In this document: positions 986 through 42,776 of the stretch, one piece after another
How positions within the stretch are numbered: position 1 is the stretch's first letter
How the letters are laid out: every line of letters begins with the position of its first letter
From: a virus
IMG/VR virus record: IMGVR_UViG_3300021440_000049
Span: 1 to 43,403 of that record
Strand: one strand, 5' to 3'
DNA length: 43,403 nucleotides
Made by a program: the position numbers and the translations under genes
Notes under the pieces: model-generated
The model's database searches: none
Seen by the model: the letters and a program-made list of their open reading frames with translations, nothing else
What the model was told of the DNA's origin: nothing

Positions 986-1182
986 ACTACCGCGGCAAAC
1001 GGCTGTTCGCCGGCCGTTTGTTCGCCGGCCAACTGTGGGGGCCGCCGGTCGTGACGGGAGGCCCGCCGCCGATATGGACGGCGGGCGGGAGCGCGACCGG
1101 GCACCGCAACCGTCGCCAGCCGCCGAAGCGTCGCCGCCGTCGCGACACCGACGATGACGTGCTGCTGTTCCTGCTGCGTTAA
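982..1182 (+). CDS. Small basic protein of unknown function
   Basis: This is a 66-residue protein whose ATG overlaps the stop of the repeat protein (ATGA). The N-terminus holds a duplicated LFAG motif (RLFAGRLFAGQL). Proline- and glycine-rich sequence follows, then a strongly basic stretch (RRQPPKRRRRR) and a short acidic-hydrophobic tail (DTDDDVLLFLLR). Small proteins with a similar start occur next to head genes in related phages, but I cannot name a role. Its stop codon lies inside the CGTTAAAACG palindrome of the element at 1176-1203, so translation of this gene ends within a regulatory site. Confidence 0.65.
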   Translation: MNYRGKRLFAGRLFAGQLWGPPVVTGGPPPIWTAGGSATGHRNRRQPPKRRRRRDTDDDVLLFLLR

Positions 1183-1203
1183 AACGAAATAACACCGCAG
1201 ACT
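1176..1203 (+). promoter_or_regulatory. 28-bp element before the head genes (copy 1)
   Basis: These 28 bases are identical to 5040-5067. The element starts with GCGTTAAAACG, an instance of the CGTTWWAACG palindrome, and ends in CAGACT. Read as a promoter core, the two ends could be a poor -35 (TGCGTT) and a poor -10 (CAGACT) about 17-18 bp apart. It lies in the 54-bp gap before the protease gene. Head-gene promoter or activator site is inference; the identity between the two copies is directly visible. Confidence 0.6.
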
Positions 1204-1236
1204 CTTCTTCAAACTTGTCCCCAGAATCGGGGCAGT

Positions 1237-2235
1237 ATGAAAAACTGGTACTCGATCAAAGCCGTGTCCGACGCCGTCGCCGAATTGTCGGTGTTCGACG
1301 AGATCGGCTTCTGGGGCGTGCAGGCCAAGGACTTCGTTCGCGAGGTCAAGGCGATCACCGCGCCGACGATCAAGCTGTACATCAATTCGCCGGGCGGCAG
1401 CGTGTTCGACGCCGTGACGATGTTCAACGCCCTGGCGATGACCGGCAAGACGATCGAAGTCCACGTGCTCGGCGTCGCCGCCAGCGCGGCCAGCTACCTC
1501 GCGATGGTCGGCTCCAAGGTCGTGATGCCCGACAACACGTTCATGTTCCTGCACAACCCGATCAACGGGGTTTACGGCAATGCCGAGGACATGCGCGAGA
1601 TGGCCGACGTGCTCGACAAGATCGGCGCGTCCCTCACCGCTACCTACGCCAAGCGTTTCAAGGGAGACGAACAGGCGCTGAAGGACATCCTCGCGGCCGA
1701 GTCGTACCTGACCGCGGCCGAGTGCCTCGAGTACGGCCTGTGCGACGAAGTGGTGCCGGCGATCGAGGCCACGGCCAAGTTCGACATCGACCACGTGCCT
1801 GAGGCGGTGCGTGCCGTCGCCTTCAAGGCTGCCGCGCCGGCGCCCGTCGTCGAGCTGCCGAGTCTGCCCGAGCAGATTGCCGCGGCGCTCGACGCCGCCG
1901 GGCTGGCCGAGTTCCAAGCGGCGTTCAGCACCGACGCGGCGATCGCCGACGCCGACTCACTGACGGCCGCCGTCGCCGCGGCGCGTGACATCCGTTCGTT
2001 CTGCGCGCTCGCCGGCAAGGCCGACATGGCGCCGTCGCTGATTCGCGCCCGCAAGTCGGTCGCCGAGGCCCGCGCCGCGCTGCTCGCCACGCTGGCCGCG
2101 GCCGACGAGGACACGTTCGTCGACACCGCACCGCGCAGTGCGCCGAAGACCGCACCGGCCGGCGCGGACGCGCCAATGAATTCAACCGCCCTGTGGGCAC
2201 AGATCAACGCGATGAAAGCAGGAGTGAAGCAATGA
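1237..2235 (+). CDS. ClpP-type head maturation protease, possibly with C-terminal scaffold
   Basis: The 332-residue protein starts with a ClpP/S49-like fold. YINSPGGSVFDAV lies at residues 48-60, the nucleophile region GVAASAAS at 79-86 (serine 83 likely), and the histidine in FLHNP at 104-108. ClpP-type head proteases process capsid components during head assembly. Residues from about 200 onward are alanine-rich and helical and may act as a scaffold, as the C-terminal part of lambda gpC/Nu3 does; a nested scaffold start is possible but I see no decisive site. The stop overlaps the gpD-like start (ATGA). No strong Shine-Dalgarno precedes the ATG; the sequence just upstream is CGGGGCAGT. Confidence 0.9.
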   Translation: MKNWYSIKAVSDAVAELSVFDEIGFWGVQAKDFVREVKAITAPTIKLYINSPGGSVFDAVTMFNALAMTGKTIEVHVLGVAASAASYLAMVGSKVVMPDNTFMFLHNPINGVYGNAEDMREMADVLDKIGASLTATYAKRFKGDEQALKDILAAESYLTAAECLEYGLCDEVVPAIEATAKFDIDHVPEAVRAVAFKAAAPAPVVELPSLPEQIAAALDAAGLAEFQAAFSTDAAIADADSLTAAVAAARDIRSFCALAGKADMAPSLIRARKSVAEARAALLATLAAADEDTFVDTAPRSAPKTAPAGADAPMNSTALWAQINAMKAGVKQ

Positions 2236-2585
2236 CCGCACTGACCCAGGGCATCCAGACCGGCGAGTTCCTGCTGTCGGAAGCAGACGGTCAACTGAGC
2301 CGTGAGCAAGTGACCGTCACCGTCGCGGGCGCCGTCGCCCTGCCGTCGGGCAGCGTGCTCGGCAAGATCACCGCCACCGGCAAGTACGTCAAGTACGACG
2401 AGGCCGGCACCGATGACGGCCGCCGCGTCGCCGCCGCCGTGCTGCTGAACGCCCTGCCCGGCACCAACGGCGACTACAAGGCGACCGTCTTCGTGCGCAA
2501 CTGTGAGGTCGCCAGCGCGATGCTGACTTTCAGCGATGCGAACGGCGTGGCCGACCTGAAGGCCCTGAACGTCATCGTTCGCTGA
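2232..2585 (+). CDS. Head decoration protein, lambda gpD-like
   Basis: The protein has 117 residues with the typical decoration-protein layout. The N-terminal part contains GEFLLSEADGQLSREQVTV, then a small beta-rich body with LPSGSVLGKITATGKYVKY and a C-terminal LKALNVIVR. Proteins of this family trimerise on the capsid surface and stabilise the expanded shell. The start at 2232 is preferred over 2193 because AGGAG lies 8 bases upstream and it gives an ATGA overlap with the protease stop. The order protease, decoration protein, major capsid protein matches lambda C-D-E. Confidence 0.88.
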   Translation: MTALTQGIQTGEFLLSEADGQLSREQVTVTVAGAVALPSGSVLGKITATGKYVKYDEAGTDDGRRVAAAVLLNALPGTNGDYKATVFVRNCEVASAMLTFSDANGVADLKALNVIVR

Positions 2586-2614
2586 ACCCCCAAAATCACC
2601 CCGGAGACCTTGCA

Positions 2615-3604
2615 ATGCTGCTCGACGTATTCAACAGCGACGCGTTCCACCTGACCAAGCTGACCAAGGCGATCAACCTGATCCCGTATCGTCCGACGCG
2701 CATTCAAAGCCTCGGTTGGTTCGCCCAGGAGGGCATCGACACGACTTCGGTCGCGATCGAGATGCAGAGTGACGTGCTCTCGCTGGTGCCGGTCGCGGCG
2801 CGCGGCGCCCCGATGCCGATCAAGAATCTGCCGCGTCGCAACGTGCGCCCGTTCAATACGGTGCACCTGCCGCAGCGCGTCGCCTTGTACGCCGACGAAG
2901 TCCAGCAACTGCGCGCGTTCGGCGAGCAGACCGAGACCGAGCTGGCGATGGCCCGGCTGAACAAGAAGCTGGCGGTCGCCCGTCGCGACCTCGACCTGAC
3001 GATCGAGTTCCAACGCATCGGCGCGGTCAAGGGTCAGGTGCTCGACGCCGACGGTTCGACCGTGCTGCTGGACCTGTTCACCGAGTTCGGCGTGTCGCAG
3101 CAGACGCACGACATGGTGCTCGACAACGACGCCACCAAGGTTGCGATCAAGTGCAACGAAGTGCTGCGCAAGGTCGAGGACAAGCTGGGCGGCCAGATGA
3201 TGAGCGGCGCCCGCGCACTGTGCTCCAACGAGTTCTTCGACGCGCTGATCGGCCATCCGGCGGTCGTCGAGACCTACAAGTATCAGCAGGGCGCCGTGTT
3301 GCGCGAAGACCGCCGTCGCGGCTTCGAGTTCGGCGGCATCTTCTGGGAAGAGTACCGCGGCACGATCGGCGCGACCCGGTTTATCGAGGCGAACGCGGCC
3401 TACGTGGTTCCCGAGGGCGTGCCCGACCTGTTCGTCACGTACTACGCCCCGGCGCCGTACATGGAGACGGTCAACACCGAGGGCCTGCCGTTCTACGCGA
3501 AGCAGGAACTGATGGACTTCGGCAAGGGTGTGGATGTCGAGACCCAGTCGAACCCGCTGCACCTGAACACCCGCCCGAACGCGATCGTGAAGGTCACGAT
3601 CTAA
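2615..3604 (+). CDS. Major capsid protein, lambda gpE family
   Basis: This 329-residue protein matches the phage major capsid protein E family. It opens with DVFNSDAFHLTKLTKAIN and has IPYRPTRIQSLGWFAQEGI near residues 22-40. It also carries the family-typical VVPEGVPDLFVTYYAPAPYMETVNT near 270-295. The length is normal for the family. GGAG precedes the ATG by 8 bases. It builds the icosahedral head under the gpD-like protein encoded just upstream. Confidence 0.93.
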   Translation: MLLDVFNSDAFHLTKLTKAINLIPYRPTRIQSLGWFAQEGIDTTSVAIEMQSDVLSLVPVAARGAPMPIKNLPRRNVRPFNTVHLPQRVALYADEVQQLRAFGEQTETELAMARLNKKLAVARRDLDLTIEFQRIGAVKGQVLDADGSTVLLDLFTEFGVSQQTHDMVLDNDATKVAIKCNEVLRKVEDKLGGQMMSGARALCSNEFFDALIGHPAVVETYKYQQGAVLREDRRRGFEFGGIFWEEYRGTIGATRFIEANAAYVVPEGVPDLFVTYYAPAPYMETVNTEGLPFYAKQELMDFGKGVDVETQSNPLHLNTRPNAIVKVTI

Positions 3605-3608
3605 GGTC

Positions 3609-3959
3609 ATGGCGCTGGGCTACCAAGCCCGTGCAATGCAAAGGGGCCTCGCCAAACTCGGCGAGGCTTCTTTACTTGACGGGGTCGCTTGCGGAAACGT
3701 GAACCTGCAAAGGGACACGCTGATCTACGCCGGCATCGGCGACACCGCGGACGACAACCCCGTGGTGCGGTACGACCTGGCGGTCATCTCGTCGGAGCAC
3801 AACCCGAGGGTCGGCCAACGCCTCGTTCACCCGGACGGCGACTACCGCCTCGACCGCTTGGTGGATGACAACAGGTTCGTGCGTCGATTCATCCTCGTCG
3901 TCGTGCCGGTTGCGATCGCCGACTTGAGCGCCGCCTACGAAGTCGAGGCGGTGGCGTGA
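3609..3959 (+). CDS. Head-tail joining protein, probably gpFII-like
   Basis: This is a 116-residue protein between the capsid and gpZ-like genes, where lambda carries its head completion and connector genes. The sequence is mixed alpha/beta: NVNLQRDTLIYAGIGDTADDNPVVRYDLAVISSEHNP, then a predicted strand-rich end (FVRRFILVVVPVAIADL). I assign the connector role mainly from position and size; sequence support is modest. It ends in a GTGA overlap with the next gene. Confidence 0.6.
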   Translation: MALGYQARAMQRGLAKLGEASLLDGVACGNVNLQRDTLIYAGIGDTADDNPVVRYDLAVISSEHNPRVGQRLVHPDGDYRLDRLVDDNRFVRRFILVVVPVAIADLSAAYEVEAVA

Positions 3960-4576
3960 AGGTCACCATCGACGCCAAGGGCGCGATGCCGGCGCTGGCC
4001 GACCGCCTCGGACGCATCTCGGGCAGCGTGATCGGCATGGCGGCGCGCGACGCCGTGAACGAGGTCATCAAACGCTTCGAGGGCGACGCGCTGAAGGGCA
4101 TGACGGCCGACATCGGCCTGACGCCGGCCTACGTCAAGAGCAAGACCGACCTGCAACTCGCCAACAGCGTGTTGAACCCGAAGGCTCAGATGGTCACGCG
4201 GGGCAACCTGACGATCCTCGGCCGCTACCCGCTGCAGCAACTGACGCAGCCCGCAAGCCGCGCAAAGGGCGACCCGAGCCGCGGCATTGGGGCGGGCCGC
4301 AAGCAAGCAGGCGTGCGCGCCACGATCAAGCGATCGGCGCCGGCCGCCCGCGACAAGTGGTTCACGATGCGCCTACGCGCCGGGGCCGGCCCTGGTGAGA
4401 ACGTCGGCGTGTTCGTGCGCGCTACCGGTCGCACCAAGCCGAAGCACATCTACGGCCCGGCCCCGTACTCGCTGTTCCGCCATCAGATCGGCGTCTACGC
4501 CAGCGATGTCGAAGCCGACCTCGCCGAAACCACGATGCGGACGATCGTCGACCGCGTCGAGAAAGCGATCGCATGA
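3956..4576 (+). CDS. Minor tail protein, gpZ-like
   Basis: The protein has 206 residues and starts at GTG (GTGA overlap). The N-terminal half, with ISGSVIGMAARDAVNEVIKRF, a GLTPAYVKSKTDLQLA segment and VTRGNLTILGRYPLQQL, resembles the prophage minor tail protein Z family. The later part contains KWFTMRLRAG and VGVFVRATGRTKPKHIYGP. In lambda, gpZ acts at the tail end that joins the head. The order Z-like, U-like, tail tube supports the call. Confidence 0.75.
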   Translation: MKVTIDAKGAMPALADRLGRISGSVIGMAARDAVNEVIKRFEGDALKGMTADIGLTPAYVKSKTDLQLANSVLNPKAQMVTRGNLTILGRYPLQQLTQPASRAKGDPSRGIGAGRKQAGVRATIKRSAPAARDKWFTMRLRAGAGPGENVGVFVRATGRTKPKHIYGPAPYSLFRHQIGVYASDVEADLAETTMRTIVDRVEKAIA

Positions 4577-5040
4577 CTACATCCCACCACAGTGCCGAGG
4601 CCGTCGGCACTGAGCTGAGCACGCGGCTCGCCACGCGCACCGTCGCGCAAGGCGCCGAGACCAACCTTGGCGCCACGGTCTACCGCGGCCGTCGTCACAT
4701 CGACGACACCATGATCCCCTGCGTCGTGGTCATCGAAGGCGATGACGTGGTGGCGCGCGCGAACGCGCGCACTGAAGTGCAGCTCGACCAGCGCTACGTG
4801 CTGTTCGCCTACGTGCCGTGCGATCCGAACCACCCGAACGACGCAGCGCACGCAGCGCTGCGCGACATGAAGCGGGCGCTGTTCAACACCGACGGCAAGG
4901 CCGACAACCGACTCGGCGGCAAGGTCAAAGAAATCGAGTACCTCGGTCGCGACATCGGCCCGCGTGCCGACGGCGCGAGTTTCGTGTTGGCCGCCCTTGA
5001 AGTTGGGGTCGCGTACGTCGAGAACCTGGCGAACCCGTAG
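4573..5040 (+). CDS. Tail terminator-like protein (gpU position)
   Basis: This 155-residue protein overlaps the gpZ-like gene by ATGA and lies directly before the tail tube gene, where tail terminators are found. The body is mixed alpha/beta with TMIPCVVVIEGDD, RYVLFAYVPCDPNHPND, a helix HAALRDMKRALFN and a final beta region FVLAALEVGVAYVEN, consistent with the terminator fold. Sequence identity to lambda gpU is not obvious, so the role rests on position and fold-like pattern. Its stop touches the CGTTAAAACG element. Confidence 0.65.
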   Translation: MTTSHHSAEAVGTELSTRLATRTVAQGAETNLGATVYRGRRHIDDTMIPCVVVIEGDDVVARANARTEVQLDQRYVLFAYVPCDPNHPNDAAHAALRDMKRALFNTDGKADNRLGGKVKEIEYLGRDIGPRADGASFVLAALEVGVAYVENLANP

Positions 5041-5067
5041 CGTTAAAACGAAATAACACCGCAGACT
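5040..5067 (+). promoter_or_regulatory. 28-bp element before the tail tube gene (copy 2)
   Basis: This element is identical base for base to 1176-1203, with the CGTTAAAACG palindrome at 5041-5050. It lies in the 78-bp gap before the tail tube gene, one of the few gaps in the virion operon. Tube proteins are needed in many copies, so a dedicated promoter here is plausible. A TAGACT at 5085-5090 is an alternative -10 if the palindrome is an upstream activator site. Confidence 0.6.
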
Positions 5068-5118
5068 TTCCAACCCCGGTCCCGATAGACTGACCCGAAT
5101 CGACAAGGAGCATTGAGC

Positions 5119-5868: not shown

Positions 5869-5931
5869 TGACGGGGGCGCCACGGCGGGGGCGCCAATGC
5901 CCGCCACGCACGAACAGCACCGGATGATCCA

Positions 5932-10802: not shown

Positions 10803-10807
10803 CCGAC

Positions 10808-15817: not shown

Positions 15818-15825
15818 CCGAAATC

Positions 15826-15843: not shown

Positions 15844-15865
15844 CCGTAGTTCGACTAGAGTGCTA

Positions 15866-15875
15866 CGTTATAACG
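15866..15875. promoter_or_regulatory. CGTTATAACG palindrome before the lysis cassette
   Basis: A perfect 10-bp palindrome lies in the gap between the tail and lysis operons, 12 bases before the first lysis ATG. It is one of seven CGTTWWAACG sites in the window. It includes TATAAC, which could serve as a -10 box, but I see no good -35. A bound protein here would probably control entry into the lysis genes. Confidence 0.55.
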
Positions 15876-15887
15876 CAAGGATTGTCG

Positions 15888-20361: not shown

Positions 20362-20644
20362 GATCCTCGGCAATTTAGGGTGTTGGGGGGGGTGCCATTG
20401 TAAGCGCGTCGTCAGGTAGCGGGCCGGCGTAGCTTTCGGCGTAACTTCACCTGCGGAGAATTTATGACGCCCCGTAGGAGTGCTCTGGTGCCAGCATCAA
20501 TCAACCACCTATGGAGAATGGTCAATTTGCTATTTTCACCTATGAAATTAACTTCGTTTTAACGTAGTGCATCGCAACGCCACTTGCCGGCACTTGCGGC
20601 CCTGGCGTAGATTTCGGCGTAACCCTCCACTGCGCCACAACGAA
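20362..20644. promoter_or_regulatory. Integrase upstream region, candidate attP
   Basis: This noncoding stretch of 283 bp is more AT-rich than its surroundings. It holds two near-identical 20-bp direct repeats, GGCGTAGCTTTCGGCGTAAC at 20426-20445 and GGCGTAGATTTCGGCGTAAC at 20604-20623. It also has two CACCTATG copies, a short tandem of CACTTGCCGG/CACTTGCGGC at 20581-20600, and a CGTTTTAACG palindrome at 20555-20564. Repeats of this kind beside an integrase gene suit arm-type integrase sites. I cannot identify the core crossover site without the host sequence. Confidence 0.5.
20555..20564. promoter_or_regulatory. CGTTTTAACG palindrome before the integrase
   Basis: One of seven CGTTWWAACG sites, 81-90 bases before the preferred integrase start. 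The extended match is TTCGTTTTAACGTAGT, less symmetrical than the sites at 37047 and 42745. Likely operator for integrase expression. Confidence 0.5.
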
Positions 20645-22403: not shown

Positions 22404-22676
22404 TCAGTCGTGCCTTGGCGGGTCGTCGTCCTTGCCGGTGCCTACCAGCAGGTCGGGCAGGGTCAGCGGCGGCGAGTGAATCTTGCGGGACAGCCGGCGC
22501 GACTCGGCGCAGATCGACAACGCCAGGCGCACGCGCGGGTTCGGGTGTTTCTCGGCGGCGAGTTGGTAGAGGTAGATCGTCGTCGTGCCGCACGCAGCCG
22601 CGACGGCCTCACGTTGGTCTTTGGTCAACGCCCTCAGAAATTGGAGAAGTGGCGTTGGTGTGTGGGAAGGCGGCAT
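22404..22676 (-). CDS. Cro/YdaS-like transcriptional regulator
   Basis: The preferred form has 90 residues from the ATG at 22676; an in-frame ATG at 22751 would add 25 proline- and arginine-rich residues but lies within a putative operator. The core LLQFLRALTKDQREAVAAACGTTTIYLYQLAAEK matches phage Cro-like HTH proteins, with GTTTIYLYQL as the recognition-helix region, followed by RVRLALSICAESRRLSRK. A lysis-lysogeny control role is inferred from the position beside the integrase and excisionase and from operator-like repeats upstream. Confidence 0.65.
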   Translation of the reverse strand: MPPSHTPTPLLQFLRALTKDQREAVAAACGTTTIYLYQLAAEKHPNPRVRLALSICAESRRLSRKIHSPPLTLPDLLVGTGKDDDPPRHD

Positions 22677-22742
22677 TGGCGCGGGTGTAGTCGGCGGACG
22701 CCGGATACTAACGGGCCTGAGCGACGGACGGGTGTGGTGAGC

Positions 22743-22813
22743 AAGTTGCATAAATTACCTTGTTCGTCAAAACGCAGGGCAACTTTGCGCCTAAACGCAC
22801 AAGCATGCAACTT
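22743..22813. promoter_or_regulatory. Cluster of AAGTTGC/GCAACTT sites
   Basis: Three related sites lie in 71 bp: AAGTTGCAT at 22743-22751, GCAACTTTGC at 22779-22788 and ATGCAACTT at 22805-22813. The outer two are exact inverted copies of nine bases. They stand upstream of the Cro-like gene in the largest gap of the minus operon (22752-22888). The layout resembles a multi-site phage operator; which protein binds is unknown, the Cro-like product being the obvious candidate. Confidence 0.45.
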
Positions 22814-23188: not shown

Positions 23189-23243
23189 TCGCATGTCCTT
23201 GTTGAATAAGTGGCCGCTACTCTCCCGGCCCGGTCGGTCGTCG

Positions 23244-24930: not shown

Positions 24931-24932
24931 CG

Positions 24933-28244: not shown

Positions 28245-28608
28245 TTGACAAGCCCTTTCTCGCAGTCGACGTCGCAGCCGCTCGGGAGGCCGAGCAGGAG
28301 GCACGGACGATCTGAGAGACCCGGTCGCTCGACAGCCCGTACTCCGTCGCCACGTCGATCCGCGTGCGCGTCTTGCACGCCCGGACGATCTCCGCATCGC
28401 GCTTCGCACGGATCACCCTCGCCTCGATCGTCGTCAGGGACCGCCGCCGCCGCTGCGGGGGTAGGCCGCTGTAGACCGTGCTCAGGATCTCGATCGTCGC
28501 AACCCGATGGCCGTTGGCACACTCGCGAGTCCGCCTCAGGGCGAACCCGCGGTCGGCCTTGCGGGTTTCCAGCACCGAAGTCCATGCTCCGCACTTCCCG
28601 CAGTTCAC
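28234..28608 (-). CDS. NrdR-like zinc ribbon plus HTH protein
   Basis: The 124-residue protein starts with GTG overlapping the upstream stop (GTGA). The first 40 residues read CGKCGAWTSVLETRK, then LRRTRECANGHRVATIEIL, the zinc ribbon pattern of the NrdR N-terminus with ligands Cys3, Cys6, Cys30 and probably His34. The ATP-cone that NrdR uses to sense nucleotides is absent; instead a helical region with an HTH follows (RIDVATEYGLSSDRVSQIVRA). It is likely a phage regulator rather than a true NrdR. Confidence 0.7.
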   Translation of the reverse strand: MNCGKCGAWTSVLETRKADRGFALRRTRECANGHRVATIEILSTVYSGLPPQRRRRSLTTIEARVIRAKRDAEIVRACKTRTRIDVATEYGLSSDRVSQIVRASCSASRAAATSTARKGLSNVA

Positions 28609-29489
28609 GCCAGGACGTACCCGTGCTGCACCATCGCCTCGTGCGTCCAGCCGCCGGCTTTCATCGCCTCGTAGGTGACGCCGGCGGCCTTGGCGGTCAT
28701 GACCGGGCCGGCTGGCGGCGCGGGCGGCGCGGCGACGGGGGCGGGCGGGGGCGGCATCAGGATGGCCGGGTTCGGGGTGACGGCGACGACCGGCGGCGGG
28801 GCGGCGACGACAGCGACCGGCGGGGCGACAGCGACCGGCGGGGCGGGGTTGAACGCGCCGCCAACAGGCAACGCGGACGCGCCGGCCGGCAGTGCGACAC
28901 CCTTGCCGAACCCGACGGCGGCAGCGTCCGGGCCGACGGTGATCTCGGGGCCGTAGGCGGCCAGGGCGACCATGCCGTGGTTCAGGTAGATGCCAGGGGT
29001 GTCGCCCGTGTTGCCGTCGACCGAGCCGAACACCTGCACGTAGTAGCCGAGCTTGACGGCGTCCGCGTCGAGAATCTGCTGGCTGCCGTCCGCGTTGTAG
29101 ATGCGCGGGGCGAAGCTCGACGCGAAGTTCAGCACCCAGCAACCGGCGTAGCCCTCGTTGTCGACCGGCTTGCGGCCCTTGCGGTTCGGCACGGTGCTGT
29201 CGCCGTCGGTGATCTTCCACGCGAAGGCAGGGCCTTGCGCGGGGCCGGGATGGCATGTGTGGCCGACCGTCCAGACCTGCGCGCCCCACTCGGTTTGCGA
29301 CCAGTGCGTGTGCCCGGCGACCTTGGGGATCGCCACGGCGAAGTAGTAGCTGATGACGGGCTTGCCGGCGTTCGGTCCCGACTTGACGAGGACCGGGCTA
29401 CCGTGGTTGTCGAGCTTTTCCTGCGGCTTGTAGAGCGACCCGCGGACGACGCGGCCGACCGGGAACAGAATATCTTTGCGAGTGGTCAT
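28605..29489 (-). CDS. Single-strand DNA-binding-like replication protein
   Basis: This is a 294-residue protein. The N-terminal 190 residues form a beta-rich domain (FPVGRVVRGSLYKPQEKLD, ISYYFAVAIPKVAG, GCWVLNFASSFAPRIYN, AVKLGYYVQVFGSVDGN) like the DUF2815/OB-fold ssDNA-binding proteins of phages. A long proline- and alanine-rich linker at 205-265 precedes a C-terminal peptide AGVTYEAMKAGGWTHEAMVQHG. The first gene after the promoter at 29514-29542. Binding of single-stranded DNA is inferred from fold pattern and location with the polymerase. Confidence 0.65.
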   Translation of the reverse strand: MTTRKDILFPVGRVVRGSLYKPQEKLDNHGSPVLVKSGPNAGKPVISYYFAVAIPKVAGHTHWSQTEWGAQVWTVGHTCHPGPAQGPAFAWKITDGDSTVPNRKGRKPVDNEGYAGCWVLNFASSFAPRIYNADGSQQILDADAVKLGYYVQVFGSVDGNTGDTPGIYLNHGMVALAAYGPEITVGPDAAAVGFGKGVALPAGASALPVGGAFNPAPPVAVAPPVAVVAAPPPVVAVTPNPAILMPPPPAPVAAPPAPPAGPVMTAKAAGVTYEAMKAGGWTHEAMVQHGYVLA

Positions 29490-29513
29490 GTTGAATCGGG
29501 TAGTGGAAGTTGA

Positions 29514-29542
29514 ATGCTATTGCGTTTTAACGAAGTCGTCAA
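29514..29542 (-). promoter_or_regulatory. Early leftward promoter with operator in the spacer
   Basis: On the minus strand TTGACG (29542-29537) and TAGCAT (29519-29514) are 17 bp apart, a good sigma70-type match. The spacer holds CGTTAAAACG (plus-strand CGTTTTAACG at 29523-29532), one of the seven palindromes. A protein bound there would block the polymerase. The first ATG is at 29489, about 18 bases from the expected transcription start, without an obvious Shine-Dalgarno. A second half-like site, GCTTTTTAACG, lies at 29545-29555. Confidence 0.65.
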
Positions 29543-29841
29543 TTGCTTTTTAACGCGGCGAGACGTGCGCGCGCTCGGTATGCTTTGATCTTGTCGGCGT
29601 TGGCGGCGTAGTAGGCCGCTTGGCATGCTTTGATCTTGTCGGCGTTGGCGGCGCGGTAGGCGGCGTCCTGCGCTTTGATCTGCTCCGCGTTGGCGGCGCG
29701 GTAACTCGCCTGAGCGGCACGTATTGCGTCGGCGTTGGCGGCGTAGCGGGCCGCTTTGACTGCTTTGATCTTGTCGGCGTTGGCAGCGGCGTAGGCAGCC
29801 GCGCACCGCCGAGAATCCCGTAGTTCGGCTTGACCTTCACG
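29539..29841 (-). pseudogene. Start-less repeat-protein frame directly behind the MazG-like stop
   Basis: A 100-codon open frame follows the MazG-like gene in the same frame after its UGA. It reads AELRDSRRCAAAYAAANADK then repeats of about 14-15 residues such as YRAANADKIKACQAA, ending RARLAALKSN. It contains no ATG, GTG or TTG. Codon choice with GC-rich third positions marks it as the coding frame. Similar repeat tails occur in phage proteins with a Cys-rich head, so it may be a 5'-deleted remnant; readthrough of UGA (followed by C) or frameshifting from a GTG at 29840 are alternatives. It ends inside the -35 box of the next promoter. Confidence 0.5.
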
Positions 29842-31608: not shown

Positions 31609-31775
31609 GATGCGCGAGCCTCGGCCGGCGCGGCGGGGCGGCGGGGCGGCGTGGCCTCGCTCCACGCGGCACCCCACTCCAAGCGCGCCAGCGCCTGCAT
31701 CGTGAGGCTGGACTCGGCCACGCCCGCCTCGCGCAACACCGTGCGGACCAACTCCGCGTCGTCGGTGGCCGTCAT
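31605..31775 (-). CDS. 56-residue protein between two early genes
   Basis: This short frame is flanked by a 4-base overlap on each side: ATGA with the upstream gene and GTGA with the nuclease gene. It reads TATDDAELVRTVLREAGV, then SSLTMQALARLEWGAAWSEA and a proline-alanine tail. Double coupling and codon composition make it a real gene. Function unknown. Confidence 0.6.
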   Translation of the reverse strand: MTATDDAELVRTVLREAGVAESSLTMQALARLEWGAAWSEATPPRRPAAPAEARAS

Positions 31776-32566
31776 GCTGCCAGCAGCGCGTCGATGCGTT
31801 GACCAACCGGGCCGACGAGGTCGGGGCGCGTCGGCAGCAGCGCCATCGACGGCAGGCCGAACTCCACGCAGATGCTGTCGAGCGCCGCCGAGGTCAGCTT
31901 GCCCGACATCAGGTGCGGGCCCATGCGGGAGGCCAGCGACGCGAAGGTGTCAGGTGCCGTAGGCGCAGCCGGCGGCGAGGGAATGGCCGGCGTCTCCGTA
32001 GCAATCGGCGCAGGCGGGACGAAAGGGGCGTTCGGACCACCCAACGCCACGCTCGGGGCTCCCATCGCTTGCCGCAGTTCCGCCTCAACCCGAGCCTTCA
32101 GGGCTGCGTCGTTCAGGCCGCGCTTCTGACGCCACCGACCGTCGGCGTTCTGCGCCCGGCCGCCAGCGTGGATGCGTGCATCCCACGGCAGACCGTCGGC
32201 GTCAACATCGATCCCGGCAGGGCTCGCAGGGGCGGCAGGCGCCGCGGGGACAGCCGCCTCCGGCGCGGGCGGCGGTGCAGGCGGAACGCCAACGGCCGGC
32301 GGCGTCACTGAAGTAGCCGGCGGTGCCGCGGGGGCAGTCGGCGGCGCTGCGACAACCGCAATAGAGGGGGCAGGCGGCGGGGGGACCGGCACGGCGGCAA
32401 CCTCTTGCTGGGCGAAGGGGTTGAACGGCGCCGCGACGGCGGCACTCACACCCACGTCGGGGCGGTCGTTGAAGTCGATCTTGAGTTGGCGGTCTACGCC
32501 CCCGTTCAGGTACTCGTGCAGTTCGTCCAGCGAGGCGAAGGTAAGGGTAAGCGTTACTGCGTTCAT
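31772..32566 (-). CDS. Conserved phage protein with LPWDxRIH motif
   Basis: The 264-residue protein starts at the ATG at 32566; the frame extends upstream but into the promoter. The N-terminal segment (VTLTLTFASLDELHEYLNG) forms a small domain, followed by a long proline- and alanine-rich linker. The conserved central block GLPWDARIHAGGRAQNADGRWRQKRGLN with ALKARVEAELR recurs in many phage early operons. A C-terminal helical domain follows. The molecular role is unknown; association with replication or recombination operons is the only clue. It is the first gene of the leftward operon. Confidence 0.68.
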   Translation of the reverse strand: MNAVTLTLTFASLDELHEYLNGGVDRQLKIDFNDRPDVGVSAAVAAPFNPFAQQEVAAVPVPPPPAPSIAVVAAPPTAPAAPPATSVTPPAVGVPPAPPPAPEAAVPAAPAAPASPAGIDVDADGLPWDARIHAGGRAQNADGRWRQKRGLNDAALKARVEAELRQAMGAPSVALGGPNAPFVPPAPIATETPAIPSPPAAPTAPDTFASLASRMGPHLMSGKLTSAALDSICVEFGLPSMALLPTRPDLVGPVGQRIDALLAA

Positions 32567-32580
32567 GCGAAGAAAAGAAG

Positions 32581-32610
32581 TTGACGGCGGGCCGGACTCT
32601 AGTGTGAAAT
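32581..32610 (+). promoter_or_regulatory. Possible rightward early promoter
   Basis: TTGACG at 32581-32586 and TGAAAT at 32605-32610 are 18 bp apart, about 30 bases before the helicase ATG. The -10 is poor. It overlaps the leftward promoter, so the two operons may be controlled together. Confidence 0.4.
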
Positions 32611-32624
32611 AACGCAATCGTCAA
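32596..32624 (-). promoter_or_regulatory. Leftward early promoter
   Basis: On the minus strand TTGACG (32624-32619) and TAGAGT (32601-32596) are 17 bp apart. The spacer contains ATTGCGTTATTTCA, which matches the left half of the TTGCGTTWWAACG palindrome but not the right half. It stands about 30 bp before the first leftward ATG. Confidence 0.6.
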
Positions 32625-32640
32625 CTGCGCTAAAAAATAA

Positions 32641-34314
32641 ATGTCTGCTACGGCGAAACGAAGTAGCATTACGATCCATGAACTGCGCGACTACCAATCC
32701 GACCTGCTCCGCAACGTGGTCGCCGAGTGGCACGCGGGGGCGCGCAACGTGCTCGCCGTCTCGCCCACCGGGTCAGGCAAGACCGTGGTGTTTGCCTACG
32801 CCATCGCCAATCACCCAGGCAGCAGCGTCGCCATCGCCCACCGTGCGGAACTCGTCTCGCAGATGAGCTTGGCGCTCGCCAGGGAGGGGGTGCGGCACCG
32901 CGTCATCGGCCCGGCCACGCTTGGCCGCACGTGCGCCCGACTGCACATGGACGAGTTGCAGCGGCTGTACGTCGATCCGGGCGCTCGCTGCGCTGTCGCC
33001 AGCGTGGACACCCTCGTGCGGATGGACAAGGCCGACCCGTGGTTCGCTCAGGTCACGCTTTGGGTGCAGGACGAGGCGCATCACGTTCTCGTCGACAACA
33101 AATGGGGCGACGCCTGCGCGATGTTCCCCAACGCTCGCGGGCTGGGCGTGACGGCCACGCCGGTACGCGCGGACGGGAGGGGGCTCGGCCGCCACGCTGA
33201 CGGCCTCATGGATGCGATGGTCGTCGGCGCGACGATGCGCGAACTGATCGAGCGTGACTTCCTCACGGAGTACCGCGTCTTCGCCCCGCCGAGCGACATC
33301 GACTTGTCGGCAGTGGCGGTGACCGCAAGCGGCGACTACTCGCCGCCGAAGTTGAAGGCCGCGCGGCGCGCGTCGCACATCACCGGAGACGTGGTCGCGC
33401 ACTACCTGCGCATCGCGCCGGGCAAACTCGGGATCACGTTCGACACCGACATCGAGAGCGCCACCGAGACGGCCGCGGCGTTCCGCGCCGCCGGGGTGCC
33501 CGCCGAACTCGTGACCGGTGAGTCGCACCCGGAGTTCCGCGCGTCGGCGCTACGTCGGTTCCGCAACCGCGAAGTGCTGCAACTGGTGAACGTGTCGCTT
33601 TTTGACGAAGGGTTCGACCTCCCGGCGATCGAAGTCGTGTCGATGGCCGCGCCGACTCAGTCGTACGGCCGCTACGTGCAGCAATTCGGCCGCGCCCTCA
33701 GGCCCCTGCCCGGCAAGACGCACGCGATCATCATCGACCACGTGGGCAACGTCCTGCGCCACGGTCTGCCTGACGCGTATCGCGAGTGGTCGCTGGACCG
33801 TCGCGAGCGCCGCAGTCGCAGCGCCCCGGCCGATGCGATCCCGGTGCGCACGTGCCTGAACCCCGAGTGCCTGTCGGTCTACGAGCGCATCTACTCGGCG
33901 TGCCCCTTCTGCGGCCAGGTCGTCGTGCCGGCCGCGCGCAACGCCCCCGAGTTCGTCGACGGTGACCTGCTCGAGTTGGACCAGGCCGCGCTCGCGGCCC
34001 TGCGCGGCGAGAAGGCACGCATCGACGCGGCCGTGCAGGTGCCCCACAACCTCGTCGGCACGCCCGCCGAGCACCGCCTGCGCCGCGTGCACTGGGAGCG
34101 CCAGGAGGGCCAGAAGCCGCTGCGCGACGCCATCGCGCTGTGGGCCGGCTGGCAGAACACGCTGGGCCGCCCCGACCCCGAGGTCTACCGGCGGTTCTAT
34201 TTCAAGTTCGGTGTGGACATCCTCACCGCGCAATCGCTCGGAGCCGCGGAAGCCGCCGAGTTAACCGAACGGGTCAGCACCGAGCTTGCCCGTCATTCCG
34301 TGGAGCATGCATGA
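32641..34314 (+). CDS. Superfamily 2 DEAD/DEAH-box helicase
   Basis: This is a 557-residue protein. Q-motif-like LRDYQSDLL near 15-23, Walker A SPTGSGKT at 41-48, DEAH at 144-147, TATP at 171-174 and motif VI QQFGRALRP at 347-355 identify an SF2 (RecQ/UvsW/Hef-like) helicase. A C-terminal zinc ribbon follows (Cys405, 410, 421, 424). Its role is probably unwinding of replication or recombination intermediates. No Shine-Dalgarno precedes the ATG; the upstream bases are AT-rich (GCTAAAAAATAA). The stop overlaps the next gene (ATGA). Confidence 0.9.
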   Translation: MSATAKRSSITIHELRDYQSDLLRNVVAEWHAGARNVLAVSPTGSGKTVVFAYAIANHPGSSVAIAHRAELVSQMSLALAREGVRHRVIGPATLGRTCARLHMDELQRLYVDPGARCAVASVDTLVRMDKADPWFAQVTLWVQDEAHHVLVDNKWGDACAMFPNARGLGVTATPVRADGRGLGRHADGLMDAMVVGATMRELIERDFLTEYRVFAPPSDIDLSAVAVTASGDYSPPKLKAARRASHITGDVVAHYLRIAPGKLGITFDTDIESATETAAAFRAAGVPAELVTGESHPEFRASALRRFRNREVLQLVNVSLFDEGFDLPAIEVVSMAAPTQSYGRYVQQFGRALRPLPGKTHAIIIDHVGNVLRHGLPDAYREWSLDRRERRSRSAPADAIPVRTCLNPECLSVYERIYSACPFCGQVVVPAARNAPEFVDGDLLELDQAALAALRGEKARIDAAVQVPHNLVGTPAEHRLRRVHWERQEGQKPLRDAIALWAGWQNTLGRPDPEVYRRFYFKFGVDILTAQSLGAAEAAELTERVSTELARHSVEHA

Positions 34315-36251: not shown

Positions 36252-36745
36252 TCTCACTAGACGAAGCGACGAAAGACTGGGCCGTTGACGAAGGTGGTTG
36301 GAAGATCGCGCCGGCCGGCCTCGCGTGGATTGCAGAAGGCGCGCGGGCCATCCTCGGCGACAGGGCCCGCATCGGCGACGGGGCCAGCATCGGCGACTGG
36401 GCCAGCATCGGCGACTGGGCCAGCATCGGCGACGGGGCCCGCATCGGCGACGAGGCCAGCATCGGCGACTGGGCCAGCATCGGCGACAGGGCCAGCATCG
36501 GCGACGAGGCCAGCATCGGCCCGAACTCGTCCGACGCCGTCGACCTCGGCTCGGCCGACGGATACCGCAAGTGCGTCGCGCAGGTTGACGGCGTTGCGTA
36601 CATCGGCGCCGGGTGCCGATGGTTCACGCTCGACGCCGCGCTAGCGCACTGGTCGGCCGCACCGGCAGGTACGCGAGACACGACGCTGTGCTTACTGCAG
36701 GCGGCGGTCGCTGTGGCGAAACTTCGCGGTTGGAGGCACGCATGA
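36248..36745 (+). CDS. Left-handed beta-helix protein with hexapeptide repeats
   Basis: The 165-residue protein has nine hexapeptides of the form xA(R/S)IGD at residues 39-92, the signature of a left-handed beta-helix: each repeat puts isoleucine on the inside. The C-terminal domain (YRKCVAQVDGVAYIGAGCRWFTLDAALAHW) is globular. The helix would have only about three turns. There are no acyltransferase motifs beyond the repeats. I recall similar phage proteins with the same IGAGCRWF ending and no known function. A trimer or a DNA-mimicking shape is possible but unproven. Confidence 0.7.
   Translation: MISLDEATKDWAVDEGGWKIAPAGLAWIAEGARAILGDRARIGDGASIGDWASIGDWASIGDGARIGDEASIGDWASIGDRASIGDEASIGPNSSDAVDLGSADGYRKCVAQVDGVAYIGAGCRWFTLDAALAHWSAAPAGTRDTTLCLLQAAVAVAKLRGWRHA
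36362..36523 (+). repeat. 18-bp tandem repeats encoding hexapeptides
   Basis: Nine in-frame 18-bp units (GCCAGCATCGGCGACTGG and variants) encode the hexapeptides. The repeats differ mainly at the first and third codons. The high DNA identity indicates recent expansion or recombination. Confidence 0.85.
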
Positions 36746-37056
36746 ACATCCGCATCGAATCAACCCTCACCGACCCGCCCGAGTCGCGCACGACGCTGTC
36801 GGGCGAGGCGGCGCTGATCTTCCGCGTCGCCACCGTGGGCTGGCCGGTCGAGGCACGCGTGAAGCTCGGCAAAGAGCCCGAGGCGTTCATCCGATCGAGG
36901 CGCCTGGCGGCCATGTGCCAACGCGGCGATGCGGTCGTCTTGGAGGCCACGGGGTTGTCACCCCGGACGGACCACTCGGTCGCCGCGATCCTGCTGCACG
37001 GGGTGTCGCAGGTCAAGGTCGTAGGCCGCTTCGTCGTGCCTGGACTATTGCGTTAA
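36742..37056 (+). CDS. Small protein before the cytosine methyltransferase
   Basis: This 104-residue protein opens NIRIESTLTDPPESRTTL and is beta-rich (AALIFRVATVGWPVEARVKLG, then AVVLEATGLSPRT and VKVVGRFVVPGLLR). No family is recognised. It is coupled to the hexapeptide protein by ATGA; its stop codon lies inside the operator-like palindrome at 37047-37064. Confidence 0.55.
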   Translation: MNIRIESTLTDPPESRTTLSGEAALIFRVATVGWPVEARVKLGKEPEAFIRSRRLAAMCQRGDAVVLEATGLSPRTDHSVAAILLHGVSQVKVVGRFVVPGLLR

Positions 37057-37064
37057 AACGCAAT
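37047..37064. promoter_or_regulatory. Palindrome over the cytosine methyltransferase start
   Basis: ATTGCGTTAAAACGCAAT is symmetrical in 16 of 18 bases and contains CGTTAAAACG at 37051-37060. Its right end includes the first bases of the methyltransferase ATG (37063). Binding here could block transcription or the start site, allowing direct control of the methyltransferase genes. Confidence 0.55.
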
Positions 37065-37962: not shown

Positions 37963-38248
37963 AGAACGCGCCGCCGCGCTACTCGCCGCAGCCCTCGACC
38001 TGGCCCGCAAGCAGGGTTGGCACTCGTTGACGCACGAGTCAATCGCCAAGGCCGCCGACGTGTCGCCGTCGCTGGTCAAGGTGCGCCTCGGCACCATCGC
38101 CGCCCTGCGCCGCGCCGTGATGCGCGAGGCCGTCAGGCAGGGCGTCGTGCGCGTCGTTGCAGAAGGCCTGGTGGCGGGCGACCGGACGGCGCGGCGCGCC
38201 GACGCGGCGCTGCGCTCGGCGTGTGCCGAGTGGATGGTGCGCGCGTGA
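37946..38248 (+). CDS. TetR-like HTH protein without ligand domain
   Basis: This 100-residue protein starts with TTG; AAGGG lies 6 bases upstream, and it overlaps the end of the methyltransferase gene by 17 bases. The first 60 residues match the TetR DNA-binding domain (ALLAAALDLARKQGWHSLTHESIAKAADVSPSLVKVRLGTIAAL). The ligand-binding/dimerisation domain of full TetR proteins is missing. It sits between two methyltransferase genes, so controlling them is a plausible inference. Confidence 0.75.
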   Translation: MKTSTKERAAALLAAALDLARKQGWHSLTHESIAKAADVSPSLVKVRLGTIAALRRAVMREAVRQGVVRVVAEGLVAGDRTARRADAALRSACAEWMVRA

Positions 38249-39378: not shown

Positions 39379-41741
39379 CCCTCGGCCCCCTAGCGCCGCT
39401 GGCAGCCTATCGCCAGTTCATCGTCGTCAAGCTCGTACCGCTCGCCAACGGCAAGACGACCAAGCTGCCCGTGCGCCACGACACGCTCGCCGTGTGCGAC
39501 GCGCACGACCCGACCGCCTGGACCGACTATGACACCGCTGCGGCCGTCGCGCTGCTGTGCGGCCCGTCGTACACCGTGGGTTTCGTGCTGACCGACGCCG
39601 ACCCGTTCTGGTGTCTGGACATCGACGACTGCGCCACCCCGAGCGGATGGTCCGAACTCGCGCTCGCTCTCTGCCAGCAATTGCCGGGCACCGCGGTCGA
39701 GGTCTCGCAGTCGGGCCGCGCCCTCCACGTGTGGGGCCGGCGCTCGGCGATGCCCGCGCACGCCTCGAAGGACATCGACCGCCACATTGAGCTGTATTCG
39801 TCGAAGCGTTTCATCGCGCTCGGCTCGCAGCGGGTCGGCACGATGGCCGAGGACTGCGCGGCGATCGACGCGGTCGTGGCGGCGTTCTTCCCGCCGCGAG
39901 CCGAGCGCGCCACGGTCACCCCCGAGGGCGAGGGCCCGCGCGCCGACTGGCGCGGCCCGACCGACGACGCCGACCTCCTGCGGCGCGCGCTGATGTCGAA
40001 GTCGGCGGCCAGTGCGTTCGGCAACCGCGCGTCGTTCGCGGACCTGTGGCACGCCGACGAACGTGCGCTCGGCCGCGCCTTCCCGCCCGACAGCGGCAGC
40101 ACCGAGCCGTACGACCGCAGCAGTGCCGACGCCGCGCTGGCGCAGCACCTGGCCTTCTGGACCGGCTGCGATGTGGCCCGTATCGAGCGCCTGATGCGTC
40201 AGTCGGCACTCGTGCGGCCGAAGTGGGATGATCGGGCAGACTACCTCGTCGACCGCACGATCCGCGGCGCAGTCGGCATGCAGCGCGACGTGCTGCAGGA
40301 CGCCCCCAGTGCCGTGCCGCTGACGGTCGAGGCGGTCGCCGTGGCCGCCTCGCAGGCCGCCGGCAACGGCCCGCCGCCGCTGGTCGACGTGCAGGGCAAC
40401 ACGTTCCTCGGCGTGGACGAACAGAAGCGCCTATTCGCCGGCTGCATCTACATCCTTGACGCGCACCGGGTGCTGATCCCCGGCGGCCAGTTGGTGAAAG
40501 CGGACCAATTCCGCGCCAGGTTCGGGGGTTACACATTCGTGCTCGACCGCACCGCCACGAAGACCACGCGCAACGCGTGGGAGGCGTTCACCGAGTCGCA
40601 AGCCAACACGACGCCCGACGCCGACGGAACGTGCTTCAGGCCCGACCTGCCCTACGGGGCGATCGTGACCGACGCCGGCCGACGCCGCGCCAACATCTAC
40701 TGGCCGGTCGACGTGCCGTGCACGCCGGGCGACGCCGGGCCGTTCCTGCGCCACCTGGCGAAGTTGCTGCCCGACGAACGCGATCGCCTGATCCAATTGA
40801 GCTACCTCGCGTTCATCGTGCAGTACCCCGGCTGCAAAAGCCAATGGGCGGTCGTGCTGCAGGGCTGCGAGGGCAACGGCAAGACGCTGTTGTCGCGTTG
40901 CGTGGCCGAGGCGATCGGCCGGCGCTATACGTACTGGCCCAAGGCGAGCAAGATCACCAAGCAGTTCAACGCCTGGCTGTTCGGGCACATCTTCTTCGCC
41001 GTGGAAGACATCCACACGGGGGCCGACTCGGACATCCTCGACGAGTTGAAGCCGATGATTACCGGGGGCGACGGTCTGGAAATAGAGGCCAAAGGCGTCG
41101 ACCAAGTCAGCCGCGAGATATGCGGCAACTTTCAGTTCAATTCGAACCACAAAAACGCCCTCAAGAAAACGGCCAACGACCGCCGCCTGTGCATGCTGTT
41201 CTGCGCCCAGCAGTCGGCCGATGACCTGCTGCGCGACGGCATGGACGAGGCCTACATGACTGGCCTGTACGACTGGCTCAAGAGCGGCGGGTACGCGATC
41301 GTGACGCACCTGCTGAAGACCTTCGCCATCCCGGACGAGTTCAACCCGGCCAAGGACTGCCAGCGCGCCCCGGTCACGTCGAGCACGGCTCAGGCGATCG
41401 CCAACAGCCTCGGCTCGGCAGAGCAAGAGGTGCTTGAAGTCATCGAGCAAGGCACCGAGTCGGGTTTCCGCGGCGGGTGGGTCAGCAGCATGGCGCTCGA
41501 CCGGCTGCTCGACCGCGTCGGCAAGGGCCGCAGCGTGCCGCTCAATCGACGCAGGGACATGATGCGCTCCCTTGGATACGACTGGCACCCCGCGCTGCCT
41601 GACGGCCGCGTGAACAACCCCGTGCTGCCCGATGGCGGCGGGCGGCCCCGGCTGTACGTCGCCAAGGGCCACCCGTCGCTGGCGCTGACCGTGCCGGCCG
41701 AGATCGCTAAGGCTTACGTCGCCGCGCAGCAGTTGGCTTGA
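39375..41741 (+). CDS. Primase-helicase (AEP-like primase plus SF3 helicase)
   Basis: This is a 788-residue protein. The N-terminal archaeo-eukaryotic primase-like domain has LDIDD at 81-85 (metal-binding acidic motif), SQSGRALHVWG at 111-121 and the RHIELYSSKRFIALGS segment. The C-terminal helicase domain has Walker A GCEGNGKT at about 497-504, followed by FAVEDIHTGADSDILDELKPM (Walker B-like region) and NFQFNSNHKNAL, as in the DUF5906/D5-like SF3 group. It probably primes and opens the origin for the family A polymerase. The start is coupled to the methyltransferase by ATGA. Its last 35 bases overlap the opposing HTH gene. Confidence 0.88.
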   Translation: MTLGPLAPLAAYRQFIVVKLVPLANGKTTKLPVRHDTLAVCDAHDPTAWTDYDTAAAVALLCGPSYTVGFVLTDADPFWCLDIDDCATPSGWSELALALCQQLPGTAVEVSQSGRALHVWGRRSAMPAHASKDIDRHIELYSSKRFIALGSQRVGTMAEDCAAIDAVVAAFFPPRAERATVTPEGEGPRADWRGPTDDADLLRRALMSKSAASAFGNRASFADLWHADERALGRAFPPDSGSTEPYDRSSADAALAQHLAFWTGCDVARIERLMRQSALVRPKWDDRADYLVDRTIRGAVGMQRDVLQDAPSAVPLTVEAVAVAASQAAGNGPPPLVDVQGNTFLGVDEQKRLFAGCIYILDAHRVLIPGGQLVKADQFRARFGGYTFVLDRTATKTTRNAWEAFTESQANTTPDADGTCFRPDLPYGAIVTDAGRRRANIYWPVDVPCTPGDAGPFLRHLAKLLPDERDRLIQLSYLAFIVQYPGCKSQWAVVLQGCEGNGKTLLSRCVAEAIGRRYTYWPKASKITKQFNAWLFGHIFFAVEDIHTGADSDILDELKPMITGGDGLEIEAKGVDQVSREICGNFQFNSNHKNALKKTANDRRLCMLFCAQQSADDLLRDGMDEAYMTGLYDWLKSGGYAIVTHLLKTFAIPDEFNPAKDCQRAPVTSSTAQAIANSLGSAEQEVLEVIEQGTESGFRGGWVSSMALDRLLDRVGKGRSVPLNRRRDMMRSLGYDWHPALPDGRVNNPVLPDGGGRPRLYVAKGHPSLALTVPAEIAKAYVAAQQLA

Positions 41742-41904
41742 GGGGTCGGCCGGGCGCACCGGGCGGCTCGCCGCGGCGGCGCAGCGCGCGGATCACGGCG
41801 GAACGCGAGACCGATTCGGCCTCGGCCGCCGCGGCGATAGTGTGGCCTCCCGACAGGTAGCGGGAGACGGCGCGCTCGACGGCGCTGGATTCACGTGCGG
41901 TCAT
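41707..41904 (-). CDS. Small HTH protein antisense to the primase end
   Basis: This 65-residue protein has an HTH of the resolvase/Mor-like type: AVERAVSRYLSGGHTIAAAAEAESVSRSAVIRALRRRG. The C-terminus is proline- and basic-rich. It is coupled upstream by ATGA to a secreted-protein gene and ends inside the primase gene on the other strand. Transcription from here would give antisense RNA to the primase 3' end. Confidence 0.6.
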   Translation of the reverse strand: MTARESSAVERAVSRYLSGGHTIAAAAEAESVSRSAVIRALRRRGEPPGAPGRPLKPTAARRRKP

Positions 41905-42257
41905 CGCCGCCCCTCCACCCGCGGACGGCCGCCGCCGCCGCCGTTGACGCGCAGCGCCTCGGTCGACACGAACGGCACGGCCGTGCCCCGCGGCACCCAG
42001 TAGCCGACCGTGCGGCCCCGTTCATCGAATCCGATCACCTGCCACGAGCTGCCGGCGCTGCCCCCGAGATCGTCAGGGAAACGGGGGGCCTCGCGAATGA
42101 GGGGCGCATCGGGGATCGGGTCGTGCCGGTAGCCTGGGCCGCACGGCTCGGATTGGAACCAGCGTCGGCCCTCGGGATCGCTCAGGTCACGACAGGCGTA
42201 GCCGGCGTGGGCGGGGGTTGCGGTGGCGAGGACCGCCAGGGCGAGAAGGGGTCTCAT
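41901..42257 (-). CDS. Secreted DUF4124-like protein
   Basis: The 118-residue protein begins with a signal peptide (MRPLLALAVLATATPAHA, cleavage after AHA). The mature part opens GYACRDLSDPEGRRWFQSEPCGPG, with two cysteines in the DUF4124-like YxCxD...F...PC pattern, and continues with a WQVIGFDERGRTVGYWVP segment. A periplasmic location is expected. GGAG lies 5 bases before the ATG at 42257; an upstream extension of the frame lacks that site. It could be a lysogenic conversion gene. Confidence 0.68.
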   Translation of the reverse strand: MRPLLALAVLATATPAHAGYACRDLSDPEGRRWFQSEPCGPGYRHDPIPDAPLIREAPRFPDDLGGSAGSSWQVIGFDERGRTVGYWVPRGTAVPFVSTEALRVNGGGGGRPRVEGRR

Positions 42258-42384
42258 GGGTCTCCTTCGAGCCGCACCGCGCGACCCGTTGACGCTAGTA
42301 TCGTAGCGTAACGCCACCAATTCCATTGGGGAAAACCCTAGGGGGAGAAGGGAGATGCTGACCGCTAATTACCATAAATAAAGC

Positions 42385-42442
42385 AATAGCGCCCTCAAAA
42401 TTGCCCCCATAAAAATAGCGCCCTCAAAATTGCCCCCATAAA
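42385..42442. repeat. Two 29-bp direct repeats (iterons)
   Basis: The two units are perfectly identical and adjacent, running AATAGCGCCCTCAAAATTGC then CCCCATAAA. A partial third copy (AATAACG) follows. Possible iterons for an initiator such as the primase-helicase. Confidence 0.75.
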
Positions 42443-42744
42443 AATAACGGGGCACTTTCACACCAATCCACACGAAAGTGGGGGGTGGCCGGAGAGCAAG
42501 GACTGGCTTCAAAAACGGCCCTTTTACACGATACTCCACACCCTTTTCAGTTGCGTGGCGGCGCGGCGCAGGCGGCCACGGTGGGGCTATTTAACGCTAT
42601 TTAATTACTGCTCGTGCGTGTGCGTGCACGTATAGCAATGTGAGGTATGGTTAGGAGTATAGGAGTATAGGGTGTAAAAGAGTAATGAAATCAAGTACTT
42701 AGGTCTACGCCGGACTCAGGAGTATTTCCCGTGTAGTCCGGTGT

Positions 42745-42776
42745 GTGTTGCGTTTAAACGCAACACGAGGGACAAT
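42745..42776 (+). promoter_or_regulatory. Promoter with perfect 22-bp palindrome before the Mor-like gene
   Basis: A 22-bp perfect palindrome at 42745-42766 has the core TTGCGTTTAAACGCAA. TTGCGT (42748-42753) and GACAAT (42771-42776) are 17 bp apart, a fair sigma70 match, so the palindrome covers the -35 and most of the spacer. The expected transcript start falls within a few bases of the GTG at 42785. Confidence 0.65.

Follow-up and report, generated by a model that had tools for sequence, protein, structure and literature searches.

Dispersed palindromic operator candidates in a phage genome fragment, with a Cro-like protein as their most likely reader

Dispersed operators in bacteriophages

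Symmetric repressor sites that are dispersed over a whole phage genome, in the form of conserved inverted repeats, are known from Streptomyces phage phiC31. Here, we describe a palindrome, CGTTWWAACG, that recurs at gene starts throughout the virus record IMGVR_UViG_3300021440_000049, a linear record of 43,403 bases (called the window below), and we discuss a small Cro-like protein encoded in this record as the most likely reader of the sites. The C1 repressor of phage P1 is described as having 22 operators dispersed over the genome, each an asymmetric 17-bp sequence (PMC8546580), while the stoperators of Cluster A mycobacteriophages are described as more than 20 asymmetric 13-mers, mostly in one orientation and read by a monomer (PMC6550527, PMC9283540). 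Dispersed phage operators are already known, and the putative set in the window would belong to that kind. As in P1, the candidate sites would be operators spread over many promoters, and their positions fit this. As in Cluster A, where stoperator sequence is reported to vary among related phages as the repressor does (PMC6550527, PMC9283540), they lie over the genome. In contrast to the asymmetric P1 operators (PMC8546580) and the asymmetric, one-orientation stoperators, the sites in the window are palindromes.

The closest structural match to the model of the candidate reader is YdaS of prophage CP-933P. YdaS and its partner PaaR2 are reported to bind a region in which 18-bp palindromes are evenly spaced over the promoters PRM and PR and to repress a further PL-like promoter, a precedent for YdaS-mediated repression of several promoters (PMC8630535). 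The window shares with this system equally spaced palindromes over promoters and a Cro-like regulator whose predicted fold may be similar. It differs in that the CP-933P sites are reported for the immunity region and one further promoter, with a CI-like partner, PaaR2, and the half-site GTTTAGTAA (PMC8630535). Literature searches returned no description of the dyad in the window or of gene control in Curvibacter phage PCA1, which together with Acidovorax phage ACF1 is the nearest named relative of the window by protein; a term search of the ACF1 paper found none of the words 'operator', 'promoter' and 'motif'.

A palindrome at gene starts throughout the window

An earlier note on this DNA had listed seven copies of CGTTWWAACG, at 1177, 5041, 15866, 20555, 29523, 37051 and 42751. 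All seven coordinates are right and the window contains no further exact copy, and the reversed pattern has none at all; the chance expectation, claimed to be well below one, was a mean of 0.07 and a maximum of 1 in shuffled sequences. The copies were also said to lie at gene boundaries or in intergenic DNA, and this holds. According to a GC-based gene model, which gives the window an intergenic fraction of 0.083, five of them are strictly intergenic and two (1177 and 37051) overlap the final six bases of the preceding open reading frame (ORF). A check for additional in-gene copies found none within the body of any gene. The two late-gene sites, 1177 and 5041, lie in one duplicated, identical 28-nt block and are therefore counted once, so that the seven operon starts of the earlier note exist as sites and represent six independent events. 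The longer form that it had ascribed to the better copies, TTGCGTTWWAACGCAA (16 bp), is matched perfectly by two sites, 37048 and 42748, whereas the remaining five exact sites have 2–4 mismatches in the outer arms; the perfect 22-bp palindrome at 42745–42766 is present as claimed. With up to two mismatches to TTGCGTTWWAACGCAA, six places are found, against a mean of 0.0125 per simulated genome and a maximum of 1 in 2000 simulations. Shuffles and simulations together rule out chance and base composition as the origin of the sites, which, judged by their sequence, form with high probability a real, phage-wide set of putative operators.

The list of sites was incomplete: a mismatch scan adds five weaker ones, at 22762 (4 mismatches), 22785 (3), 29543 (3), 32602 (4) and 32625 (5). 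Other places of this quality exist: 3141 has 4 mismatches, and a total of eleven places have 5, where 10.3 are expected. A weak site by itself is therefore of little significance, and pairs are more telling. A search of the window for site pairs, with thresholds chosen after the result of the mismatch scan had been seen, returned exactly three, each with a spacing of 23 bp: 22762/22785, 29520/29543 and 32602/32625. In 2000 simulated genomes, the mean number of such pairs was 0.03 and three pairs never occurred, a statistic that is somewhat optimistic because these genomes are uniform and the window has AT-rich gaps. One pair lies directly 5' of the Cro-like gene and the other two at the two top-scoring sigma-70-like promoters, flanking the -35. 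Enrichment, positions and 23-bp pairs lend good support to the earlier proposal that one phage-wide regulator would act on these sites.

The two promoters in question, 29542–29514(-) and 32624–32596(-), are the only ones in the window by a 9-of-12 criterion and again rank first in a weighted scan. Both are built alike: a site is followed by TTGACG, then by one base, a second site and the -10 hexamer. In the first, the site at 29520..29535(-) occupies the spacer (TTGACG-17-TAGCAT) before the gene of a single-stranded DNA-binding protein (SSB; 28605–29489), and its weak partner at 29543..29558(-) abuts the -35. In the second, the weak site at 32602..32617(-), which overlaps ORF 31772–32617 at its assumed 5' end, occupies the spacer (TTGACG-17-TAGAGT), and its partner at 32625..32640(-) abuts the -35 directly before the helicase gene at 32641(+). 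On the plus strand, the site at 15863..15878 follows a possible -10 (TTGCGC-17-TAGAGT) and precedes gene 15882, for which the label 'lysis' could not be confirmed, the 124-residue product having no PHROG match. The site at 20552..20567(+) likewise follows a possible -10 (TTGCTA-16-TAACTT), before the integrase gene at 20567. The perfect 16-bp site at 37048..37063(+) runs into the ATG of the methyltransferase gene at 37063, and the 22-bp palindrome at 42745..42766(+) spans the -35 of TTGCGT-17-GACAAT, upstream of the gene of a Mor-like late activator (42785..43273, +). The two late-gene sites, 1174..1189(+) and 5038..5053(+), lie upstream of the head protease gene (1237) and the tail tube gene (5113), each with the exact 10-mer and two mismatches to the 16-bp form. 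As the sites take varying places over promoters (-35, spacer, after the -10), a repressor would fit better than an activator.

A Cro-like protein as candidate repressor

The product of 22404..22751(-), a Cro-like helix-turn-helix (HTH) protein of 115 residues, had been mentioned as an alternative reader and proves to be the better candidate: the weak site pair 22762..22777(-) and 22785..22800(-) immediately precedes its own gene, and nine of twelve tested homologues have another dyad in this place. It matches small proteins in PCA1, ACF1 and the loci L104, L105–L109, L115–L118, L120 and L126. In PCA1, ACF1, L104, L105–L109, L116, L120 and L126, the homologous gene holds the cro position, adjoining and divergent from a CI repressor gene; in PCA1, this neighbour is annotated as repressor and has no Pfam match. 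In a Foldseek search with the predicted structure of the Cro-like protein (mean predicted local distance difference test score, pLDDT, 71), YdaS chains ranked first to third (probability 0.97–0.99, E 0.32–0.88), with probability 0.99 and E 0.32 for YdaS of prophage CP-933P. A scan of genome contigs with the Cro alignment gave 39 candidates, none of which was confirmed.

It is fairly probable that the palindromes serve as dispersed operators of an HTH repressor encoded by the phage, most likely this Cro-like protein of putative YdaS fold. We infer that it binds the sites, recognises them as a dimer and represses the adjoining genes. A dimer would read the half-sites TTGCGTT/AACGCAA and block sigma-70 promoters, among them that of its own gene, the two leftward promoters with a site pair around the -35 (29.5 and 32.6 kb), and those of the integrase gene, the methyltransferase gene and the genes at 15.9 kb. 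The late-activator (Mor-like) gene would be blocked as well, perhaps together with the late leaders at 1177 and 5041. A CI-type partner sharing these operators may exist beyond the 43-kb fragment.

Several observations weigh against the assignment to the Cro-like protein or against action at promoters. The protein has no Pfam or PHROG match, and the relatives tested have no Pfam match either; its likeness to YdaS rests on a model of pLDDT 71 and a Foldseek E of 0.32. No ORF of the window matches a CI profile, so that the gene has no adjacent CI partner. Site quality is low before the gene (3 and 4 mismatches) and in the 32.6-kb pair (4 and 5). The core is also clustered in three viral contigs (G048, G038 and G035) that have no detectable Cro-like homologue, and the Cro homologues of L107, L109 and L115 have no upstream copy of the dyad of their relatives. 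The two promoter-like sites of the window are no excess over shuffled sequences (means 1.1, 0.7 and 0.7). Relative to GC-matched positions, the best-score fractions are 0.008 at 15866, 0.022 at 37051, 0.118 at 29523, 0.248 at 42751, 0.32 at 1177 and 0.365 at 20555, with no promoter-like score at 5041; only 15866 and 37051 stand out, and promoter overlap taken alone is weak evidence. At 15863, the top-scoring promoter candidate is on the minus strand instead of TTGCGC-17-TAGAGT, at 42748 a minus-strand candidate scores slightly above TTGCGT-17-GACAAT, and at 37048 the top-scoring promoter would place its -10 within the methyltransferase gene.

A different dyad in related phages

CGTTWWAACG has no copy in PCA1, ACF1 or contig G003, which is also close to the window (capsid 59%); ACPWH, which has 99% identity to ACF1 in the stretches that match, was left out of the count. 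The relatives have a different dispersed dyad, which precedes cro and further genes. First spotted by eye as TTNGC-N4-GCNAA in regions upstream of cro, it was counted afterwards as TTHGC-N4-GCDAA and is present within 50 nt upstream of cro in nine of twelve relatives (seven exact, two with one mismatch), a count that is partly circular. Overall, 47 matches against 9 for the reversed pattern are found, in 13 of 17 records, several of them near-duplicates, and none in the window. A less circular test is provided by PCA1, in which five of the six exact TTWGC-N4-GCWAA sites are intergenic (p 2.9e-7; intergenic share of the record 3.5%), or three of four without the two sites seen beforehand. ACF1 contains no exact TTWGC-N4-GCWAA; of its five one-mismatch sites, three are intergenic (p 0.0045) and one more spans the start of a gene. 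Of the seven TTHGC-N4-GCDAA sites in G003, five lie outside ORFs under the GC-based gene model. Upstream of the Mor-like gene, ACF1 and G003 each have a one-mismatch copy (chance about 0.03 in either case); PCA1 and six other loci have none there. An unbiased search for dyads in the relatives returned tandem repeats or evenly scattered words among several of its top hits, and G100 showed no convincing repeated dyad.

Thirteen Cro-like proteins were aligned. At the second position of the modelled recognition helix, 11 of them have Asn, Ala or Gly; the window protein has Ile there, and the protein of L115, a locus that also has no dyad upstream of cro, has Met. A different residue at this position goes with the lack of the dyad in these two cases, a lead rather than proof, and the link is weakened by L107 and L109, which have Ala and are also without the dyad. 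A bolder reading is tentative and, in our judgement, rather unlikely: a single Cro-type protein without CI partner would repress, throughout the phage, the operons for early functions, integration, modification, the late activator and late structural proteins, and the operator set of the family would have switched from TTHGC-N4-GCDAA to TTGCGTTWWAACGCAA together with one recognition-helix position, making the relatives heteroimmune.

Other repeated dyads were seen in further loci. TTGAC-N6-GTCAA has three copies each in the primase-relative loci L064, L069 and L074 and is possibly another dispersed operator, and CGTAWTACG (14 copies in L079), GGTAnTACC (9 in L090) and CGAA-N3-TTCG (13 in L095) are far above simple expectation.

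Alternative readers of the palindromes

The strongest alternative, still an unlikely one, is a CI-type repressor that is too diverged to be recognised or encoded in a missing part of the genome, with the Cro-like protein secondary or uninvolved. It draws on the homologous repressor gene beside cro in the relatives named above and on the size of the window, which is 14 kb shorter than PCA1; it contains no relatives of the PCA1 terminase, adaptor and portal, in a comparison in which the PCA1 capsid used as control does match, and is therefore an incomplete fragment. Against it stand the lack of a CI-profile match among the ORFs of the window, the loci L115, L117 and L118, in which Cro likewise occurs and no adjacent CI was found, and the annotation of the gap between activator and head genes in PCA1, which lists terminase, portal and hypothetical proteins and no repressor.

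Use of the palindromes by a host transcription factor has a small chance of being correct. The exact extended motif is found in 48 stretches of 47 viral contigs; CGTTWWAACG occurs once in 36 of these records, twice in nine, three times in G038 and eight times in G048. The clustered copies in G048, G038 and G035 (two copies) speak for this explanation, as no Cro-like homologue was detected there; they may be convergent, or a sign of another regulator or a host factor. In contrast, the nearest relatives, PCA1, ACF1 and G003, do not have the palindrome, nor do 33 of 38 primase relatives, the remaining five having one copy each. In the 28.6-kb G048 (L058/L059), four of the eight copies of CGTTTAAACG have matching outer arms of 7–9 bp or a further 3 bp, and a phrog_6361 gene adjoins the sites in both G048 and G035 (L061).

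Slightly less probable still is binding by the Mor-like product of 42785, the leading candidate of the earlier note, which would turn the operons on. This protein matches the late transcriptional activator family phrog_836 (E 1.5e-12) and the Pfam family Mor below its cut-off (16 bits against 24.9). Mor-type proteins bind dyad sites, and the palindrome precedes two late operons as well as the gene of the activator itself. The proposal is disfavoured, because the homologues in PCA1 and ACF1 (34% identity each) and G003 (39.5% over 124 residues) occur in records without any palindrome, because late operons share another element and because the palindrome takes varying promoter positions. A scan of viral contigs with the single Mor-like protein gave three candidates, none confirmed.

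The other element, CGMAAT-N4-SCGYWG, is non-palindromic and lies before the head and tail operons. In the window, it reads CGAAATAACACCGCAG (pattern CGMAATNNNNSCGYWG) at 1185..1200(+), overlapping the site at 1174..1189, and at 5049..5064(+). Ten of 20 records contain the pattern, which was derived from the window, PCA1, ACF1 and G003; it is matched 34 times in all and never when reversed, and 17 of the 34 matches fall in the six other matched records (G001, G002, G094, G095, G097 and G102), which form about three groups. G091, G092, G093, G098 and G099 have a Mor-like gene and no match to the pattern; G001, G002 and G102 have a match, and a Mor-like gene was not sought directly there. The late-leader element, rather than the palindrome, thus probably belongs to late activation, and the Mor-like protein is probably controlled through the palindromes rather than being their reader. 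Since the palindrome overlaps the 5' end of the late-leader element, a repressor bound there could also block the late genes directly.

A role of the sites in partition, replication or RNA hairpins is very improbable, since they lie at gene starts across the whole genome and mostly have little symmetry beyond the core, despite a weak ParB-like match of the 41707–41904 product (E 0.025) and the potential of the 22-bp palindrome to fold.

Gene content of the window and implications

Among the subset of ORFs scanned, genes were identified for a head protease, major capsid, tail tube and tape measure proteins, an integrase, a DNA polymerase, a Gp2.5-like SSB, exonucleases, a helicase, a C5 methyltransferase, a primase and the Mor-like activator. 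Megablast of the window against phages returned no match for positions 1–25000 and only methyltransferase stretches for the rest, among the matches listed (20 of 21 records). Tandem repeats are present at 36338–36550 (18 nt, encoding IGD-x-AS-type repeats), 29593–29799 (45 nt) and 43310–43389 (20 nt), and a 29-nt repeat at 42385–42442, within the AT-rich gap that precedes the Mor-like gene, may represent replication iterons.

The putative operators provide a readable control map for a little-studied group of phages, whose named relatives infect Curvibacter and Acidovorax. They allow a likely regulator to be named, distinct from the late activator with its own putative element. With their different dyads, the window and its relatives provide an example from nature of an entire operator set that changes from one related phage to another, which bears on the divergence of phage immunity groups.

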